Assembly: GCA_026984935.1 (NCBI GenBank)
Contig: JALSRD010000045.1
Span: forward strand, 1-60,720
Direction of reading: 5' to 3'
Length of the DNA stretch: 60,720 nt
Source: Desulfobacterales bacterium
GTDB lineage: Bacteria > Desulfobacterota > Desulfobacteria > Desulfobacterales > JALSRD01
In this document: positions 11,782-18,441 of the stretch, in pieces
Position numbering within the stretch: position 1 is the first letter of the stretch
Layout of the letters: each line of letters begins with the position of its first letter
Translations under genes and position numbers: made by a program
The notes under the pieces: generated by a model
What the model saw: the letters and a program-made list of their open reading frames with translations, nothing else
Database searches by the model: none
Told to the model about the DNA's origin: nothing

Positions 11782-13041
11782 TTACCATTTCTCCGCGCCG
11801 GCTGCGCCGTAAAAGATGTTTTGGGGCGCATGTCCGTCCAGCAGCCGGCGGCAGGCATCCACCATGAAACCGGCCACCACCTGGTTGGTCATGATCACCG
11901 AGGGATCCGGTTGGTAGCTGCAGGACGCCCTGGAACCTGAGCTGCCGGTAATTTTTCGCGCGGCCACGACATCGTAAAGGCCCAGAAGTTCAGCCGGTGT
12001 GGGCCCTTTTGCATGCGGGTCATATACAATCACCTGGCCGGTCTCAACGCCGGTACCGCCGCTGATGAGCACTTTTTGGCCCGCCCGGCACGTCTCGCTG
12101 AGCGCGATGCGGCTCTCGAAGTTATCCACGCAGTCGAAGACCACCTGGTAATCCGAAATATCGCTGGCAGCGTCGAAGCGCCGGACCGCGGCGTCGGTTT
12201 CCATCCGGTAGAAACGCTTCAGCCGCCGGCTGAGCGTTTCCGCCTTGCTCTGGCCGACCGCATCGTACAGCAGCACCTGGCGGTTCAGGTTTGTCGTCTC
12301 CACCGTATCCGGGTCCATGAAGGTGACCCGTGTAAAACCGCTGAAAGCCAGCCCCAGCCCCACAAAATTTCCCAGCGCGCCGGCGCCCACGACCAGGATT
12401 TTCGGCATCGCTCCGGGAGCCGGCACTGTTTTACGCACATATTGGACCACCTCGGGTGAGACCGGACGCTGCATCAGGATGTTTTTCGTATCCTCCAGCA
12501 CCAAGCCCGCGGCAATGATATCCAGCACGCCGTCATCGAAATGCGCCGCCGGAAGGTTGTAGGGCGGCAGGATGCGCCGGATATCCTCCCATTCGCGCCC
12601 CCGCCGGTAGCAGAAAATGCGCAAGCCGCGCTGTGAACCTTTTTCGAACAAAAACCCCCGGATGACGGGCATGTTCCGGGAGAAGCCCTGATTCAAAAGC
12701 AGCTTGCCGGCCAGTGCGAACCGGCTCAGGTCGACGATCAGATCGCAGCGCCCGAGCAGGTCGTCCGCCAAAGGATAAGTATAGTACCCTTTTATGTGTG
12801 CCAGTTCGAGCCGTGGATTCAGCCGCCGGGCCGCTCCGGTCAGCACCTTGTCGAGCACGGGTGCGATGGCGACCACCTGGTTGATGCCCAGCGCCGCCGC
12901 GGACAGAACGTAAATTGATGCCAGCCGGTCATCGTCACCCACCACGCAGATCCGCGCCCGCCCGACGGCGTCCTGGTCCCAGCCCGCGATCCTGAGTTGC
13001 CGATCCAGCCGCGCTTCATCGATAGCCGCCGGTTTGCCCAT
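11782..13041 (-). CDS. two-domain E1-like (ThiF-family) activating enzyme
   Basis: The 419-residue protein contains two Rossmann halves. The N-terminal half (about 12-205) starts RQLRIAGWDQDAVGRARICV but its nucleotide loop reads VVGDDDRLAS, lacking the glycine motif, so it is probably inactive. The C-terminal half (about 213-419) is intact: GAGALG at 219-224, the acidic residue in DPDTVETTNLNRQ (243-255), D303/D306 in DCVDNFESR, and a cysteine at 374 in SRASCSYQPDPSV, where E1-like proteins often carry the thioester cysteine. It would adenylate a ubiquitin-like C-terminus. It is the last gene of the six-gene operon, three bases after the JAMM gene. The partner protein is not proven. Confidence 0.85.
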   Translation of the reverse strand: MGKPAAIDEARLDRQLRIAGWDQDAVGRARICVVGDDDRLASIYVLSAAALGINQVVAIAPVLDKVLTGAARRLNPRLELAHIKGYYTYPLADDLLGRCDLIVDLSRFALAGKLLLNQGFSRNMPVIRGFLFEKGSQRGLRIFCYRRGREWEDIRRILPPYNLPAAHFDDGVLDIIAAGLVLEDTKNILMQRPVSPEVVQYVRKTVPAPGAMPKILVVGAGALGNFVGLGLAFSGFTRVTFMDPDTVETTNLNRQVLLYDAVGQSKAETLSRRLKRFYRMETDAAVRRFDAASDISDYQVVFDCVDNFESRIALSETCRAGQKVLISGGTGVETGQVIVYDPHAKGPTPAELLGLYDVVAARKITGSSGSRASCSYQPDPSVIMTNQVVAGFMVDACRRLLDGHAPQNIFYGAAGAEKW

Positions 13042-13044
13042 TGC

Positions 13045-13839
13045 CTACATGCGCTCGATGTTTTCCGCCCGTGCGGCGGGGTTTATGGCGTCCCTGACGA
13101 TCTGTTCCAACGCACGGGCATCGGCGTCCGCAAAAAGCGGCGGCGTATCGTGCACCACGAGTTCGGCCTCCTGAAAGTCCACCGACGTTTCTTTCGAAAG
13201 CACGGCGGTTTTTTTGTAGTGCACCTCCTGCACGTGCCACCCACTGTCTCCGATGACGATGGCGTAACTGAAGCCGCCGTAAACGCTTTCCAGCAGTCGG
13301 GCGGCTGTCACGGGGCGATCGGTGACAAGCGTCACGCTGCCCTCCTGCAGCCGTTGCGGCGTATATTGGTTTTCGGCCAGCAGGCTGAGGTCCCCGATAA
13401 TGACTTCCCTCTTGGACAGCACACGCTTGGCGCGCGAGGTGACGAAATCGAGTACGGTGAGGTGATTTTTGCGGTCCGTTTCGGAAAAATGCGCGTATTT
13501 CAGAACGCCGTGGGAGTGTATCCAGCCGTTGATGAGCCGGTCCGGTGGCAGCGACGTCTGAAAGGCGGCGATGGGCTGCGCCGCCAGCGCCGTATACTCG
13601 ATGCGGTTCTGGTCGTTGGGCGGCAACCCGACATCGACGATGAGCTCCGGATGTGCCGCTTCCGCCAGCGTAAAGCCGTACCATTCGAAGCTGCGCCCGT
13701 GGATCTCGCGAACCAGTTGACTGATCTTAAACGCTTTGTCCCGGGCGTATGAGGTCATGAAGACCTTCTGCGGCAGGTGCGCCAGAACGACTTCCTCCGG
13801 CGGCCGGCGTTTTAGCGCCGACAGGCTCTTGATCCTCAC
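13045..13839 (-). CDS. JAMM/JAB-domain metalloprotease (candidate deconjugase)
   Basis: The 264-residue protein carries a complete JAMM zinc site in about the first 130 residues: Glu52 in SFEWYG, His108 and His110 in WIHSHG, Ser119 and Asp122 in HFSETD. Spacing is HxHx8SxxD, close to the canonical x7. Such enzymes hydrolyse isopeptide bonds or trim precursors of ubiquitin-like proteins. Residues about 150-264 are an extra domain rich in beta strands that I do not recognise. The start is a GTG at 13839 overlapping the TGA of the ClpX-like gene (GTGA), implying coupled translation. Its position between the unfoldase and E1-like genes argues for removal of a modifier during unfolding. Confidence 0.85.
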   Translation of the reverse strand: MRIKSLSALKRRPPEEVVLAHLPQKVFMTSYARDKAFKISQLVREIHGRSFEWYGFTLAEAAHPELIVDVGLPPNDQNRIEYTALAAQPIAAFQTSLPPDRLINGWIHSHGVLKYAHFSETDRKNHLTVLDFVTSRAKRVLSKREVIIGDLSLLAENQYTPQRLQEGSVTLVTDRPVTAARLLESVYGGFSYAIVIGDSGWHVQEVHYKKTAVLSKETSVDFQEAELVVHDTPPLFADADARALEQIVRDAINPAARAENIERM

Positions 13840-14939
13840 CGCAGCCTCGCCTGCATATAGTTTTCGTCAACCACCAACTCTCCGGTATAATTCCCCGGCA
13901 GGTCGTACATGTCCTCTATCAGCACCCGGTGCAAAATGCCGGTCAGGCCGCGCGCTCCGGTGCCCTCACGCTGCGCCAGGCGGGCGACTTCGGACAGGGC
14001 GGCGTCCGTGAATTTCAATTCGATCCCCCATGCCCGCAGATCCTCCACATAAGCCAGCAGCGGGCTGTCTTCACTGCGCGTCATGATGCGCCGGAGGTCC
14101 CGGGATGTCAACGCGTCATAGACGATTTTGACCGGAAAGCGCCCCATGAGCTGACGTTCCATGCCAAAGGACACCAGGTCTTCGGACAGCAGGTAGTCCT
14201 GCCAGTCGCCCGTATAATTCTGCTTTTGCATGCGTTTCTTAACCAGCTGATCCAGGTTTTCATACGCGCCGCCGGCGATGAACAGGACATGCCGGGTGGA
14301 CAAAAGGATTCTTTCGCGCCCGATTTCGATGCTGTTTTCCACACCCTCGACGAGTTTCAGCAACCCTTTCTGCACCCCCTTGCCGGACACGTCCTTGAAG
14401 GCCACGCCGTCCGTGGCGATCTTGTCGATCTCGTCCAGGTACACGATGCCCATCTGCGCCACGTGGGGGTTGCCGCCGGCGATCAGCAAAAGGTCCACCA
14501 GAATGTCGTTGGCGTTCTGGCCCACGTAACCCACTTCGGAAAAACGCGTCAGATCCTCCTCGATGAAAGGGACGCCCACCAGCGCCGAAGCGGTTGCGCT
14601 GCTGTAGGTTTTGCCGCAGCCGGTGGGCCCCACGAGCAGGATGTTGGCCTTGGGCGTTTTGGCGGTCCGAAGGGCGATGTCGATGTCTCCGCCGGTTTCG
14701 ATCAGGGCCTCTTTCAGCGCGTTGGCCAGCCGTTTGTAGTGAAAGGCAATGGCCGTGGCGATCACCTTTTTGCCCTTTGTCTGGCCGATCACGAAGCGGT
14801 CCATCTGCGCCTTCAGGTCGGCCGGTGTTTGGTTGAATTCGATAATGTTCTGCACGGCCTCACTGGTCTGCTGGGCACGCTGGGCGCGTATTTTCTCCTC
14901 GATCAGCTGCCTTTTCTCATCGGACAGTCTGTCGTTCAT
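13836..14939 (-). CDS. ClpX-like AAA+ unfoldase without zinc domain or ClpP-docking loop
   Basis: The 367-residue protein follows ClpX through the AAA+ core: Walker A GPTGCGKT (104-111), pore loop GYVGQ (137-141), Walker B YLDEID (167-172), arginine-finger region GRFPV (266-270) and sensor 2 GARGL (328-332) followed by MYDLPG. It lacks the N-terminal zinc-binding dimerisation domain. The IGF/L loop that docks ClpP is absent: the equivalent stretch reads KKRMQKQNYTGDWQDYLLSE. The RKH pore loop is also missing. It therefore probably unfolds substrates without ClpP. The start at 14939 has GGAGAAGCC before it and overlaps the upstream stop (ATGA). An earlier in-frame ATG at 14981 lies inside the upstream gene. 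Confidence 0.85.
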   Translation of the reverse strand: MNDRLSDEKRQLIEEKIRAQRAQQTSEAVQNIIEFNQTPADLKAQMDRFVIGQTKGKKVIATAIAFHYKRLANALKEALIETGGDIDIALRTAKTPKANILLVGPTGCGKTYSSATASALVGVPFIEEDLTRFSEVGYVGQNANDILVDLLLIAGGNPHVAQMGIVYLDEIDKIATDGVAFKDVSGKGVQKGLLKLVEGVENSIEIGRERILLSTRHVLFIAGGAYENLDQLVKKRMQKQNYTGDWQDYLLSEDLVSFGMERQLMGRFPVKIVYDALTSRDLRRIMTRSEDSPLLAYVEDLRAWGIELKFTDAALSEVARLAQREGTGARGLTGILHRVLIEDMYDLPGNYTGELVVDENYMQARLR

Positions 14940-15592
14940 GGCTTCTCCGTTTTGGTCTCCGGTTTTCCTGAAAAGTTCCATCCGGCGGTAGGCGGACCCA
15001 CCGGGAAAACTCGTTGTGGCAGGTCACTATTCGATTTTTCGATCACCCCGGCCAGAACGCGCAGGTATGCGAGTTGCTTTGCAAGTGCATCCAGCCGCCG
15101 GCGCGTTTTGTCCTCCGGGGACTCGTCTAGGGTGCGCAAAACATCCATTTGCCGTGACAGCTCCTTTATCCGGCGGCGGACGCGTTCACCCATCAGCAGC
15201 GTGCCGAAATGGCATTTTTGCAGCCGGTCCGCCGGAATATGGGGATTGAGGCCGTACAGCCTGCGGCATACAAGAATTTCTTCCGGCGCGGTGACGTAAT
15301 CGAGGTATGGGCAGTCGATTTTTCGTATGATGGACCCGGCCAGATCGTACGCACGGCTGTGCAGCAGGACGAACAGGGGCATCTCCAAAGGCGCCTTAGG
15401 CGGCAGCCTAAGCGGTTGACGGAGCAGGTCGCGTCCGGGCTCCATAGCGGCCGCGTCGAGTTGCTTTAAAAAGGTATCTTCCAGGCCGTAGACGCCGACG
15501 ATGCTGCCGATGCGGTCGAACAGGGTCCGCTTAAAAGCGCTTTTCCGGTGCGTGTGCGCACGTTTCGCCTTGATGTTTGCAACAAGATCCAT
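14936..15592 (-). CDS. unrecognised helical protein of the ubiquitin-like operon
   Basis: I do not recognise this 218-residue protein. It appears mainly alpha-helical, with a probable coiled coil around residues 133-185 (RVRRRIKELSRQMDVLRTLD and following). It has a low-complexity tail rich in proline, lysine and threonine. Three cysteines lie in KIDCPYL, EILVCRR and QKCHFG. The start ATG shares a base with the stop of the preceding gene (TGATG at 15592) and its stop overlaps the ClpX-like start. This double coupling implies a fixed stoichiometry, perhaps as an adaptor or scaffold between the E2-like protein and the unfoldase. That role is inference only. Confidence 0.65.
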   Translation of the reverse strand: MDLVANIKAKRAHTHRKSAFKRTLFDRIGSIVGVYGLEDTFLKQLDAAAMEPGRDLLRQPLRLPPKAPLEMPLFVLLHSRAYDLAGSIIRKIDCPYLDYVTAPEEILVCRRLYGLNPHIPADRLQKCHFGTLLMGERVRRRIKELSRQMDVLRTLDESPEDKTRRRLDALAKQLAYLRVLAGVIEKSNSDLPQRVFPVGPPTAGWNFSGKPETKTEKP

Positions 15593-16770
15593 CAGATCAA
15601 ATCGTTTTTCACCTCCACCTGTCCAGACAGGACGTCAGGGTGATCGGATGGGATGCGCAGGTCTTCAAAATGGACGGCTGTTTCTTCAGCCGCAGGGTCC
15701 AGGCGGTGATAGCCGTTGCGTCGGCGGCGGTCGTAGCCGTAGAACAGGGCGTTCAAGCCGGCCTCTAAAACGGCAATAGCCGCCGGGGGCGTGAACTTTC
15801 CGGGCAAGGTGAAATCGCCCATGCAGATCTCCTGTCCTGAAGCATGGCGGTATAAAAAAGGATGCTTGTATTTTTCCAGCACCCTGGGTTTCAGAACACC
15901 GTGAGTGGAAAGCGCCACCCGGCAATCCGGGAAAAGGTAGATGCGGCCGTAAAAGTCTTTCAAGGCAAAAGGCCCGGTGTGTTTGTAAATGATATATTCC
16001 CCGGTGCCGTCGACACGGTAAAAGCCGAATCCGTCGATCTCCAGCCAGCCTCTGCGTGCCAGGTGCACCAGTACCTCGGCTTGCGAATCAGGCAGTTTTT
16101 CGGACGGCGCCTGGGTGTGCAGCATTTTTTGCAAGCGCCTTTTCTGTGCATCCAGATACCGGGCGCGGGCCGCATGCCGCAGCCAGTCGTCCAGCACACG
16201 GCCGGAAACCGGCCCCGGTGTGAGGGGCCGGATGGGCGCTATCTGCTTTTCAAGGCGGGACAGCATCTGCCGCAGGTCTTTTTTCCCCTGCTTCGGCCGG
16301 GATTCGCCTGAACGTTTCCCGCCGGTGCCGAGCTTAGCTGTAATCAGGCCGAAAATTTCTTTTTTGTCGCCGGGGCAGCGGCGAAAACCTTTGCTGCGCC
16401 TCACGAAATGGGGCATCACCTCAAATAAGATGGCCATCAACAGTGCATCGATGCCGCCTGAATCACAGGCACGCGTGTATTCATCAAATTCGGATTTTAT
16501 ATCGGCCGCCCACCGGCTGTCCAAAAGAGCGTAATTTTCCACCAGTGAATCCAGCTGCACGGTTTGCACGAAGCGCCTGCCCCTCCTTTCGATCACCAGT
16601 GGCGGATCCACCGTTGGGCCAGAGTCTTGTCGGCCGCCGCATACCGGCCGTGCCGCGGCTTCTCTTGCAATGCTGGGGTCCAGCAGCAGCGGCGCATACA
16701 AGACCTCGTGCTGCACGATAAATTCGATGTCCGAATCCCGATCCCGCGGTTGCCGCCAAAATAGTGTCAT
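15592..16770 (-). CDS. protein with C-terminal E2/UBC-like domain
   Basis: The 392-residue protein ends with a segment that follows the ubiquitin-conjugating E2 pattern. A beta-meander (YGRIYLFPDCRVAL) leads to KYKHPFLY, matching the E2 HPN/HPxxY step. Then comes GQEICMGDF, with Cys316 in the active-site position, and FTPPAAIAVLEAGLNALF, like the E2 helix after W-x-P. It also recalls PRTRC protein B/Prok-E2 family D in length and arrangement. The N-terminal 230 residues are unrecognised and contain a basic linker. I prefer the ATG at 16770. A TTG at 16779 would add three residues. It follows the first gene by 12 bases and couples to the next by TGATG. Confidence 0.6.
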   Translation of the reverse strand: MTLFWRQPRDRDSDIEFIVQHEVLYAPLLLDPSIAREAAARPVCGGRQDSGPTVDPPLVIERRGRRFVQTVQLDSLVENYALLDSRWAADIKSEFDEYTRACDSGGIDALLMAILFEVMPHFVRRSKGFRRCPGDKKEIFGLITAKLGTGGKRSGESRPKQGKKDLRQMLSRLEKQIAPIRPLTPGPVSGRVLDDWLRHAARARYLDAQKRRLQKMLHTQAPSEKLPDSQAEVLVHLARRGWLEIDGFGFYRVDGTGEYIIYKHTGPFALKDFYGRIYLFPDCRVALSTHGVLKPRVLEKYKHPFLYRHASGQEICMGDFTLPGKFTPPAAIAVLEAGLNALFYGYDRRRRNGYHRLDPAAEETAVHFEDLRIPSDHPDVLSGQVEVKNDLI

Positions 16771-16782
16771 GTTGCGCAAATC

Positions 16783-17205
16783 TCAACGGCCGACGGCATC
16801 TGTTGAACGATTGCTGGTGCGGCATTTTCGGCCGCGCCATCGGCCGCCCTCCTGGGGTTTGATGGCGCGCACCGGCACATAGAGGTATTTTTCGCCGGCC
16901 TGGGTTTCCTCGACCACGGCAAAGTCGATGGCCGGGTCATCCACCGCATGCCCCCTGCACAGCAGCATGCCGCCGTCGAGCTGGCTGTTGATCTCTTCCA
17001 GAACCAGTTGTTCCTCGATGCTCAGGTTCTTTTTGTCGAGCAATTTCCGACACAGTTTGCGGAGCGATTTGCCCTCATAGTCACCGGGCGCAAACACATC
17101 AATGAGGCCCTCGGCGGCCTGTCCGGGCATGATTTCGACAACCAGCGGCAGCATTTTTTCCAAAACGTCTGCCTGCAGCGCCTTTTCCGGCACCGGTTTG
17201 TTCAT
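16783..17205 (-). CDS. small protein, first gene of the ubiquitin-like operon (possible modifier precursor)
   Basis: The 140-residue protein is not recognised. It opens the operon with a near-consensus AGGAGG eleven bases before the ATG, so it may be the most strongly translated member. Predicted order is strand (MLPLVVEIM), strand (GLIDVFAP), long helices (SLRKLCRKLL, SIEEQLVLEEINSQL), strands (GMLLCRGH, AIDFAVVEE, KYLYVPVRAI). It then has KPQEGG (116-121) and a basic tail of 19 residues. The Gly-Gly after a final strand would suit a ubiquitin-like protein trimmed by the JAMM enzyme, and no other candidate modifier exists in the operon. This is a hypothesis, since sequence alone does not show a beta-grasp fold. 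Confidence 0.6.
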   Translation of the reverse strand: MNKPVPEKALQADVLEKMLPLVVEIMPGQAAEGLIDVFAPGDYEGKSLRKLCRKLLDKKNLSIEEQLVLEEINSQLDGGMLLCRGHAVDDPAIDFAVVEETQAGEKYLYVPVRAIKPQEGGRWRGRKCRTSNRSTDAVGR

Positions 17206-17375
17206 TGTACCCTGCCTCCTTGAGATAAAAGCCTGCGTTCACTATTTTCTGTTTAGCAGCTCTTTGCCCGGCTGTCAAAACGGCTATTCATTTATCACCA
17301 GCGACGGTTTCCGGGGAAACACGGCATGGCACCCCGGCACACCGGTTCCCGCACGCCTTCGGCGTCAGAGTTTAT

Positions 17376-17620: not shown

Positions 17621-18115
17621 ATGTATTTCAAACAAGCCGACATATTCTGGGGAATGGACAGGGATTTTGTCAAGAAAATCATGGACATCGGCGAAAAAGA
17701 ATCCTGCCGCGGAGGAGATTTCCTTTTTCAGACCGGTGATCCGGCACGCTACTTTTATATCCTGTTGAAGGGTGCCGTCAAGCTGCGCCGCGAAGAAATC
17801 GGCCAGACCGTATACACTGCCAGCCATGCCGGTGAAGCCTTCGGCTGGTCGAGTCTCATCGGGCGGGAAAACTACTCGGCTTCGGCGATGTGTACCGGCC
17901 CGGCTTCTCTGCTGAAATTTGACCGTGATGTTCTGCTCAAGCGCATCGAGGATGACCCGCCGAGCGGTATGCTGTTTTTCAGGGGCCTTGCCGGCGTGCT
18001 GGGAAACCGCCTGCTCAACAGTTACACCATGATGTCGGCATACAGCCACAGCCGGATGCCGCCTTCACAGGGCATCAGCACGTCGGATGCAGCGGCGGAG
18101 ACTTACGATGGCTGA
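17621..18115 (+). CDS. cyclic-nucleotide-binding (Crp-like sensor) domain protein without DNA-binding domain
   Basis: The 164-residue protein is a single cNMP-binding beta-roll: GGDFLFQTGDPARYFYILLK opens the roll, GEAFGWSSLIGRENYSASAM gives the phosphate-binding cassette region, and a C-terminal helix follows. The protein ends about where the helix-turn-helix of a Crp/Fnr regulator would begin, so it cannot bind DNA itself. AAGGAGG precedes the ATG. It sits just upstream of the cobalamin promoter and riboswitch but has its own promoter, so a link to B12 is only positional. It may act on a partner protein. Confidence 0.75.
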   Translation: MYFKQADIFWGMDRDFVKKIMDIGEKESCRGGDFLFQTGDPARYFYILLKGAVKLRREEIGQTVYTASHAGEAFGWSSLIGRENYSASAMCTGPASLLKFDRDVLLKRIEDDPPSGMLFFRGLAGVLGNRLLNSYTMMSAYSHSRMPPSQGISTSDAAAETYDG

Positions 18116-18143: not shown

Positions 18144-18172
18144 TTGACAACCACGGTGACAGAATCTATATA
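18144..18172 (+). promoter_or_regulatory. strong sigma-70-like promoter of the cobalamin operon
   Basis: TTGACA at 18144-18149 and TATATA at 18167-18172 have the optimal 17-base spacing. The predicted start near 18179 falls exactly at the 5' edge of the cobalamin riboswitch, which supports both assignments. Confidence 0.75.
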
Positions 18173-18177
18173 GGAGC

Positions 18178-18380
18178 AGCAAGGTGCCGACAGGCTCAAT
18201 AGGGAATCCCGTTCGAATCGGGAGCGGTCCCGCCGCTGTAACTCCTCCCTTTCGCTTTTCTGCAGAAAGAATTAAGAAAGGGGACTTCTCTGGTTAGCGT
18301 ATGCCACTGTTCCGATTAATCGGGATGGGAAGGCCGCCGGAGGAGCAGAGAAGCCAGAAGACCTGCCTTGCCGCCGATGC
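18178..18380 (+). ncRNA. cobalamin (adenosylcobalamin-class) riboswitch
   Basis: The leader contains the conserved blocks in order: GGTGCC at 18183, AATAGGGAATC at 18200, CGGTCCCGCCGCTGTAACTC around 18224, GCCACTG at 18303, GGGATGGGAAGG at 18321, and the B12 box AGCCAGAAGACCTGCC at 18352-18367. The variable arm between 18248 and 18295 is long and AT-rich. It lies between a strong promoter and an intrinsic terminator upstream of a corrinoid-type ABC transporter and the cobalamin biosynthesis genes. B12 binding would therefore end transcription of the whole operon. Confidence 0.95.
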
Positions 18381-18441
18381 CGCGGCGCTCCGATGGTAAA
18401 GGGCGTCCGGCTACCTCATAGGGTTAAGAAACTGGGTGCAG

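Follow-up and report, generated by a model that had tools for sequence, protein, structure and literature searches.

A six-gene block of Desulfobacterales with a probable ubiquitin-like modifier, its enzymes and a ClpX-like unfoldase

Could a bacterium mark proteins with a ubiquitin-like modifier and hand them to an unfolding motor encoded in the same set of genes? The question is raised by six genes on contig JALSRD010000045.1 (assembly GCA_026984935.1) of a Desulfobacterales bacterium, of which a stretch of 60,720 nucleotides, referred to below as the window, was analysed. All six lie on the minus strand and together span positions 17205-11782; from gene 1 to gene 6 the junctions are 12 bases, TGATG, ATGA, GTGA and 3 bases, and the sequence bears out an earlier note on this DNA in both respects. 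Gene 1 encodes a probable ubiquitin-like modifier precursor, gene 2 a probable E2-like protein, gene 3 a protein without known family, gene 4 a ClpX-like AAA+ unfoldase, gene 5 a JAMM metalloprotease and gene 6 an E1-like enzyme. With a tag, an activating enzyme, a carrier and a tag-removing protease beside an unfolding motor, the arrangement recalls the eukaryotic proteasome cap. We consider it likely that the block is a ubiquitin-like conjugation and deconjugation pathway serving an unfoldase that acts without ClpP in the manner of a segregase and has a JAMM deconjugase as its partner.

Whether these genes belong together at all can be judged from their distribution. A first search for gene 5, in 96 genomes, found it in three, the window's genome included, and a profile of those three JAMM proteins led to 21 loci in a collection of GTDB species, all of deltaproteobacterial or Desulfobacterota type bar one named only 'uncultured bacterium'. 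Among 395 sampled genomes of the phylum, profiles of genes 1, 2 and 5, which are unrelated to one another, matched 21, 20 and 21, respectively, and all three marked the same 20 genomes once a weak stray each for genes 1 and 5 is set aside. These strays were dropped, the gene 1 match in G297 (5.5e-4) as a frame that by eye encodes a response-regulator/HD-GYP-type protein and the gene 5 match in G396 (1.7e-4) as weak. Genes 3, 4 and a full-length gene 6 are present in all 20 genomes as well, so that all six genes occur in 20/20; the search for a co-conserved block, proposed in the earlier note, thus found homologues that are not scattered. The block is found as a unit in mostly uncultured bacteria related to sulfate reducers. 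Around it, at 31 loci whose neighbours were not annotated singly, no family outside the six genes appears in more than five. Because the same six genes recur together and no neighbour family widely recurs, the six-gene set is not a product of chance.

Genes 1 to 5 keep the order 1-2-3-4-5 wherever the contig is long enough, and the E1 gene adjoins the block in 15 of the 20 genomes (the window's among them) and lies elsewhere in the other five. At locus L012 the E1 gene is on another contig, separate from genes 1-5, and at L028 gene 3 was detected only with closer queries. In these counts L012/L010, L019/L060, L020/L069, L023/L062, L028/L064 and L029/L065 were taken as the same contigs, as were L024 and C95 of genome G439.

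The motor is encoded by gene 4 (13836..14939, minus strand; 367 residues from the ATG at 14939), and its assignment draws on conserved motifs. Alignment to relatives makes 14939, the ATG of the ATGA junction, the most likely start. The protein matches Pfam AAA_2 at 3.1e-17 and NCBIfam ClpX models at 1.5e-76 at best, with a score of 258 bits where the cut-off is 359, so the description as a ClpX-like AAA+ protein holds, at a level below the ClpX cut-offs. It shares with ClpX the AAA+ core, the pore loop and the small domain; Walker A, Walker B, the GYVG pore loop and the GAR sensor motif are invariant in 18/18 relatives. It differs from ClpX in what is missing: none of the 18 rows has a CxxC zinc motif or an [ILVM]GF loop, the loop called ClpP-docking, and the protein is short by 13 residues where the genome's own ClpX carries that loop (MGF there), besides lacking the zinc domain and the RKH loop. 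The host's own ClpX has zinc domain and docking loop and adjoins ClpP, and the same genome also encodes HslU beside an HslV-like gene of the proteasome family. Given the absence of docking loop and zinc domain relative to the genome's own ClpX, gene 4 appears to encode a motor without coupling to ClpP. The missing docking loop likewise lends support to the earlier remark that the locus has no obvious protease.

Other ClpX-like proteins turned up alongside. Locus L003 (G000:C68) carries a third one in an open reading frame of 582 residues; it has a loop of IGF type and a long extension at the C-terminus and lacks a zinc motif. G302 (L108) has a 612-residue frame of a similar kind. The ClpX-like gene at 6892-8004 of L012 contains an in-frame stop at codon 212, which is either a sequence error or decay.

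Directly downstream of the motor lies gene 5 (13045..13839, minus strand). Its JAMM motif, E52...H108-S-H110-x8-S119-x2-D122, is complete: E52, H108, H110, S119 and D122 are invariant in 21/21 relatives, the HSH-x8-S-x2-D part being encoded at 13474..13518 (minus strand), and the full zinc motif that had been read from this one sequence is thus kept in all 21. Pfam Prok-JAB, with E allowed up to 5, matches 10/21 members (best 0.0027) and leaves the window's protein itself unmatched, and profile searches of the PDB with gene 5 found no JAMM protein. We predict that gene 5 is both a tail-processing enzyme for the modifier and a deconjugase. A 4-base overlap joins genes 4 and 5 in 22/22 loci of one set and in 14/18 of another; of the remaining four in the latter set, one has a 1-base overlap and three have the genes 14-16 bases apart. 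A gene pair of motor and JAMM protease recalls the Rpt ring and Rpn11.

This pairing bears on the alternative that survives best, namely that the pathway is real and the unfoldase remodels pathway enzymes or an unmodified client instead of conjugates. In its favour, gene order is not absolute: the E1 gene precedes gene 1 in 7 loci, follows gene 5 in 12, the window being one of these, and lies apart from the block elsewhere, and in G439 genes 1-3 (L071) and genes 4-6 (L024) are on two contigs. On the other hand, the unfoldase and JAMM genes overlap in all 22 loci of the first set and in 15/18 of the second, and the unfoldase accompanies the modifier in 20/20 genomes. We therefore regard remodelling of this kind as unlikely and favour an unfoldase that acts on conjugates.

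The distribution also speaks to a role in anti-phage defence, in which the pathway would tag phage or defence proteins and the unfoldase would dismantle the tagged assemblies, in the manner of Bil or CBASS. The bacterial relatives in gene content, Bil and CBASS Cap2/Cap3, are described as defence systems (PMC10097602, PMC13373217), and the block is patchy within one family, where the JAMM gene occurs in 10/22 genomes and in 8/15 of the more complete ones. Against this, it occurs in 7/7 genomes of another family, and the neighbourhood count given above shows no recurring company. Phage and plasmid collections contained no JAMM relatives, pattern scans of viral contigs found no JAMM, modifier or E1 relatives, and the ClpX-like proteins of these mobile elements are less than 60% identical to gene 4. 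PADLOC returned E1-E2 models that cover only the ThiF domain of gene 6 (best 4.2e-16), together with weak matches of IetA and other ATPase models to gene 4. We thus hold a defence function to be rather improbable. Beyond the phylum, the search consisted of one scan with two peptide patterns, which members that have diverged may escape. On these data the block is a unit of the chromosome whose genes are kept together.

What, then, would be conjugated? Gene 1 (16783..17205, minus strand; 140 residues), preceded by AAGGAGG, a sequence resembling a ribosome-binding site, at 17215..17221 (minus strand), is the probable modifier of the pathway, by its predicted fold and its co-occurrence with the other genes in the profile searches. 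Conservation extends to a PQEGG motif (codons 16843..16857, minus strand) and then ends. The motif is kept in 34/34 distinct relatives found, a set from which identical sequences had been removed and whose search pattern itself demanded PQEGG; independently of that pattern, it is present in 20/20 strong profile matches and in 19/19 loci having gene 1. Behind it follows a tail, in the window of 19 residues (16786..16842, minus strand), which varies from 0 to 151 residues among relatives and is predicted to be removed, leaving G121 as the predicted mature C-terminus. In five sequences a stop codon comes directly after GG, and three continue past GG into a fused GNAT acetyltransferase, with Pfam Acetyltransf_1 at 9.2e-18 and 8.6e-19 in the two that were checked. 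A conserved GG followed by a variable tail is the pattern of the ubiquitin, SUMO and NEDD8 precursors and of Caldiarchaeum pro-ubiquitin. The fusions, found at L013 and L019 (4389-5207; these were the ones checked against Pfam) and at L061 (7299-8111, minus strand), resemble fusions of ubiquitin to ribosomal proteins.

The predicted fold agrees with such a role. In the AlphaFold (AF2) model, pLDDT is about 90 over residues 21-115 and the elements are ordered beta-beta-alpha-alpha-beta-beta-beta; a structure comparison of the model with VIA lists SUMO, ISG15, NEDD8, FAT10, Caldiarchaeum ubiquitin and other ubiquitin-like proteins in 48/50 rows, at moderate Z of 5.8-6.7. Two of these rows place the glycines in register, with residue 121 of gene 1 opposite residue 93 of SUMO2 and residue 157 of ISG15, the last glycines of those proteins. 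The gene 1 protein thus looks ubiquitin-like, having a conserved GG and a single beta-grasp core of about 100 residues (about 18-121), a fold assigned from the AF2 model and the VIA comparison with its moderate Z. The earlier note had counted genes 1 and 3 as two unknowns; this still describes gene 3 and no longer gene 1.

The activating enzyme is encoded by gene 6 (11782..13041, minus strand; 419 residues). Pfam PF00899 finds its ThiF/E1 domain at 1.8e-32, in keeping with the E1-like enzyme of the earlier note, which had missed that the ThiF halves are two in tandem. The C-terminal half (11782..12426, minus strand) is the active adenylation domain (AAD): GxGxxG, D243, N251, R254, K266, D306 and C374 are invariant in 17/17 relatives, and C374 (codon 11920..11922, minus strand) is the candidate catalytic cysteine, as we infer from this invariance. 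The N-terminal half (12427..13041, minus strand) lacks the GxGxxG motif and resembles a degenerate ThiF-like, inactive adenylation domain (IAD); its profile matches MoeB over 8-199 with E 2.2e-4 for the sequence and 0.016 for the single stretch, and NCBIfam PRK08328, of ThiF type, matches it in 12/17 members (best 3.8e-6) when E is allowed up to 1. Gene 6 therefore has the inactive-plus-active layout seen in ubiquitin E1 and in BilD. Searched against the PDB, the active half scores best with yeast ubiquitin E1 (5.2e-20), then with MoeB (2.6e-18) and ThiF (5.1e-16), so that a grouping with enzymes of cofactor sulfurylation, which the earlier note named as refuting its reading, was not borne out.

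That gene 1 is instead a thiocarboxylate carrier of the MoaD/ThiS/CysO kind, with the JAMM protease clearing the product of a sulfur or small-molecule pathway, is very improbable: strong matches of the active half extend to MoeB and ThiF too, and JAMM enzymes that work with ubiquitin-like sulfur carriers are known from CysO/Mec, but an E2-like protein, an AAA+ motor and a tandem E1 would be superfluous there, the best E1 match is a ubiquitin E1, the gene 1 model resembles SUMO and ISG15, the gene 1 protein is longer than ThiS or MoaD, and no gene family widely recurs next to the block.

For the conjugation pathway, the remaining parts are the carrier and gene 3. Gene 2 (15592..16770, minus strand; 392 residues from the ATG at 16770, in a frame open from the TTG at 16779) encodes a protein that is probably E2-like, an assignment which is structural and comes from a model of middling confidence. 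H306-P307 and Cys319 (395-residue numbering) are invariant in 19/19 relatives, and C319, 13 residues past H306, is the candidate catalytic cysteine (codon 15823..15825, minus strand). In the AF2 model a helix is followed by a large helical insertion, a meander of strands, the loop with the Cys and a further helix; the VIA comparison of this model lists E2 enzymes, judged by title and length, in 30/50 rows, at Z 4.3-5.5 over 107-129 residues. The earlier claim of an E2-like domain is thus favoured by the fold comparison, though its two top rows are not E2, and finds no backing by sequence. When the E2-like region was aligned to human UBE2D2 with hhalign, the best local alignment ended about one residue past Cys319/Cys85; we do not count this as evidence, since 14/60 shuffles scored as well and global alignments were worthless. 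Viral E2s were sought as a comparison set and none was found. Gene 3 (14936..15592, minus strand), defined by alignment, combines a variable tail with a core in which about 137 residues are conserved and which looks helical by eye; no Pfam family matched it, and family searches by sequence with genes 1, 2 and 3 gave nothing usable. Our guess is that it is an adaptor or ligase candidate.

From these parts, their conserved residues and their co-inheritance we infer a sequence of reactions, conjugation and the action of the unfoldase on conjugates included. The JAMM protease would first trim the tail of the gene 1 precursor, in line with the tail pattern, and expose GG. The E1 would then adenylate GG and take the modifier onto Cys374, for which the required residues are in place. 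The E2-like protein would receive it on Cys319 and hand it on to substrate proteins; gene 3 might serve as an adaptor for substrate or motor. Finally, the ClpX-like ring would unfold or extract the modified proteins while the JAMM enzyme removes the modifier, much like Rpn11 atop the proteasomal ATPases or a Cdc48-type segregase with a deubiquitinase. The proposed tie between a modifier pathway and an unfoldase, as the earlier note had it, is supported and strengthened by the co-inheritance and by the gene 1 assignment.

Several results pull the other way. For gene 1, a VIA Z below 8 could by itself reflect merely a common fold, and Foldseek with the model found nothing at E <= 0.001, the best match being LC3B at E 0.014. 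The gene 2 model has a pLDDT of 75.5, its VIA list is topped by unrelated helical chains which tie with the E2 enzymes in Z, Foldseek found no significant match for it, and sequence tests gave no significant E2 support. The two halves of the E1 align weakly with each other in hhalign (probability 4.7, E 0.0085). As to linkage, the E1 gene is not beside the block in six genomes examined, in one of which the block is split across contigs, and the three loci with genes 4 and 5 14-16 bases apart all come from one family. No E3 was found, and the case as a whole is built by computation.

How does the block compare with known systems? The nearest bacterial logic of tag plus unfoldase is that of Pup and Mpa, which works by other chemistry: Pup-Mpa/ARC tagging and UBact likewise deliver a bacterial protein tag to an AAA+ unfoldase, but the Pup tag is not a beta-grasp protein and no E1 or E2 is known for its ligation, whereas the block has an E1, an E2-like protein, a JAMM protease and a motor of ClpX type. 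The 26S proteasome cap (Rpt ring and Rpn11) and the Cdc48 segregase also combine an AAA+ ring with a JAMM or other deubiquitinase on ubiquitin conjugates; the motor of the block differs in being ClpX-like and having no known peptidase partner.

Among E1/E2-type systems, Bil is similar in having a ubiquitin-like protein, an E1 with IAD and AAD halves, an E2 and a JAMM protease in one operon, and its BilC opens the C-terminus of BilA, according to PMC11354881. Gene 6 shows the same pair of IAD and AAD halves, the comparison of one half with the other being weak. There are also differences: BilA has two ubiquitin-like domains and gene 1 one; the Cys domain of BilD has about 80 residues, against about 33 in gene 6; and BilB has a CEHH motif, whereas E/H/H at +6/+8/+13 of C319 occurs in 0/19 rows of gene 2 (PMC11354881). 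Since just about 33 residues lie between the end of the MoeB match and Cys374, gene 6 has no room for a Cys domain of BilD type. Moreover, the six-gene block adds the ClpX-like motor and gene 3.

PRTRC, which presumably belongs to operon type 6d, is not matched closely: the NCBIfam PRTRC ThiF model reaches 55.4 bits against a cut-off of 144.75, and no PRTRC model matched genes 1-5 at E up to 1. Type 6d is one of the operon types 6a-6e of Iyer et al. 2006 and consists of a ubiquitin-like protein, a helical protein, an E2, a JAB protein and an E1; like the block, it combines a ubiquitin-like protein with a C-terminal glycine and genes for a helical protein, an E2-like protein, JAB and E1 (PMC1779556). 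No AAA+ protein is described for it there, the words ClpX and AAA being absent from the main text. In the E2 of type 6d the classical His is missing and an absolutely conserved His lies downstream (PMC1779556), whereas in gene 2 H306 stands ahead of the Cys and none of the His residues behind it is invariant.

CBASS Cap2/Cap3 shares E1, E2 and JAB enzymes with the block and differs in that Cap2 joins the E1 and E2 domains, that the tag is the cGAS-like enzyme and no ubiquitin-like protein, and that no unfoldase is named in the available text (PMC10097602). In the block the E1 and the E2-like protein have separate genes, and the 6A-MBL model scores 54.2 bits against a cut-off of 320. The ubiquitin operon of Caldiarchaeum comes close in another way, with E1, E2 and a pro-ubiquitin whose tail after GG, nine residues long, is cut by an Rpn11-like JAMM protease that both trims and deconjugates; it is archaeal and has a RING E3, and the available text describes no unfoldase and does not contain the word AAA (PMC5654768). 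A literature search, which did not cover the papers defining Bub, Chambers 2024, Gong 2025 or Ye 2026, found no account of the six-gene set among the titles listed. The block is best placed with the bacterial ubiquitin-like conjugation systems and is set apart from them by an unfoldase of its own.

In the accounts available for them, bacterial ubiquitin-like pathways of E1/E2 type come without their own unfoldase, and the Pup type has one, with other chemistry. If tagging is indeed coupled to unfolding here, the core logic of the ubiquitin-proteasome and Cdc48 systems would have been rebuilt around a ClpX-like motor in one bacterial set of six genes, and the co-evolution of tag, motor and deconjugase would become testable. 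The step from there to a bacterial ubiquitin-unfoldase axis, in which a beta-grasp modifier served by an E1, an E2 and a JAMM enzyme of its own marks proteins for a peptidase-free AAA+ protein derived from ClpX that dismantles them and recycles the tag, is one for which we find the case evenly balanced. The joint claim that bacteria evolved the logic of a segregase or proteasome cap out of ClpX, separately from Cdc48, Rpt and Mpa, earns as much belief from us as doubt. In any case, GG with variable tails, ranging from a bare stop codon to a GNAT fusion, mirrors the precursors of eukaryotic ubiquitin.

The surroundings of the block look ordinary: one flank encodes a hydrophobic protein and a regulator of MarR type, and the other has a gene for a cyclic-nucleotide-binding protein and also a cobalamin riboswitch. 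At L014, L062, L064, L065 and L068, a long protein that forms one blastp cluster and is heterodisulfide-reductase-like by eye sits beside the block. In the window, the gene adjoining gene 1 is divergent (17621-18115, plus strand) and encodes the Crp-like cyclic-nucleotide-binding protein, whose family does not figure among the recurrent neighbours of the block. The cobalamin riboswitch (Rfam RF00174, 76.9 bits) lies at 18165-18384 on the plus strand and precedes transport-like genes.

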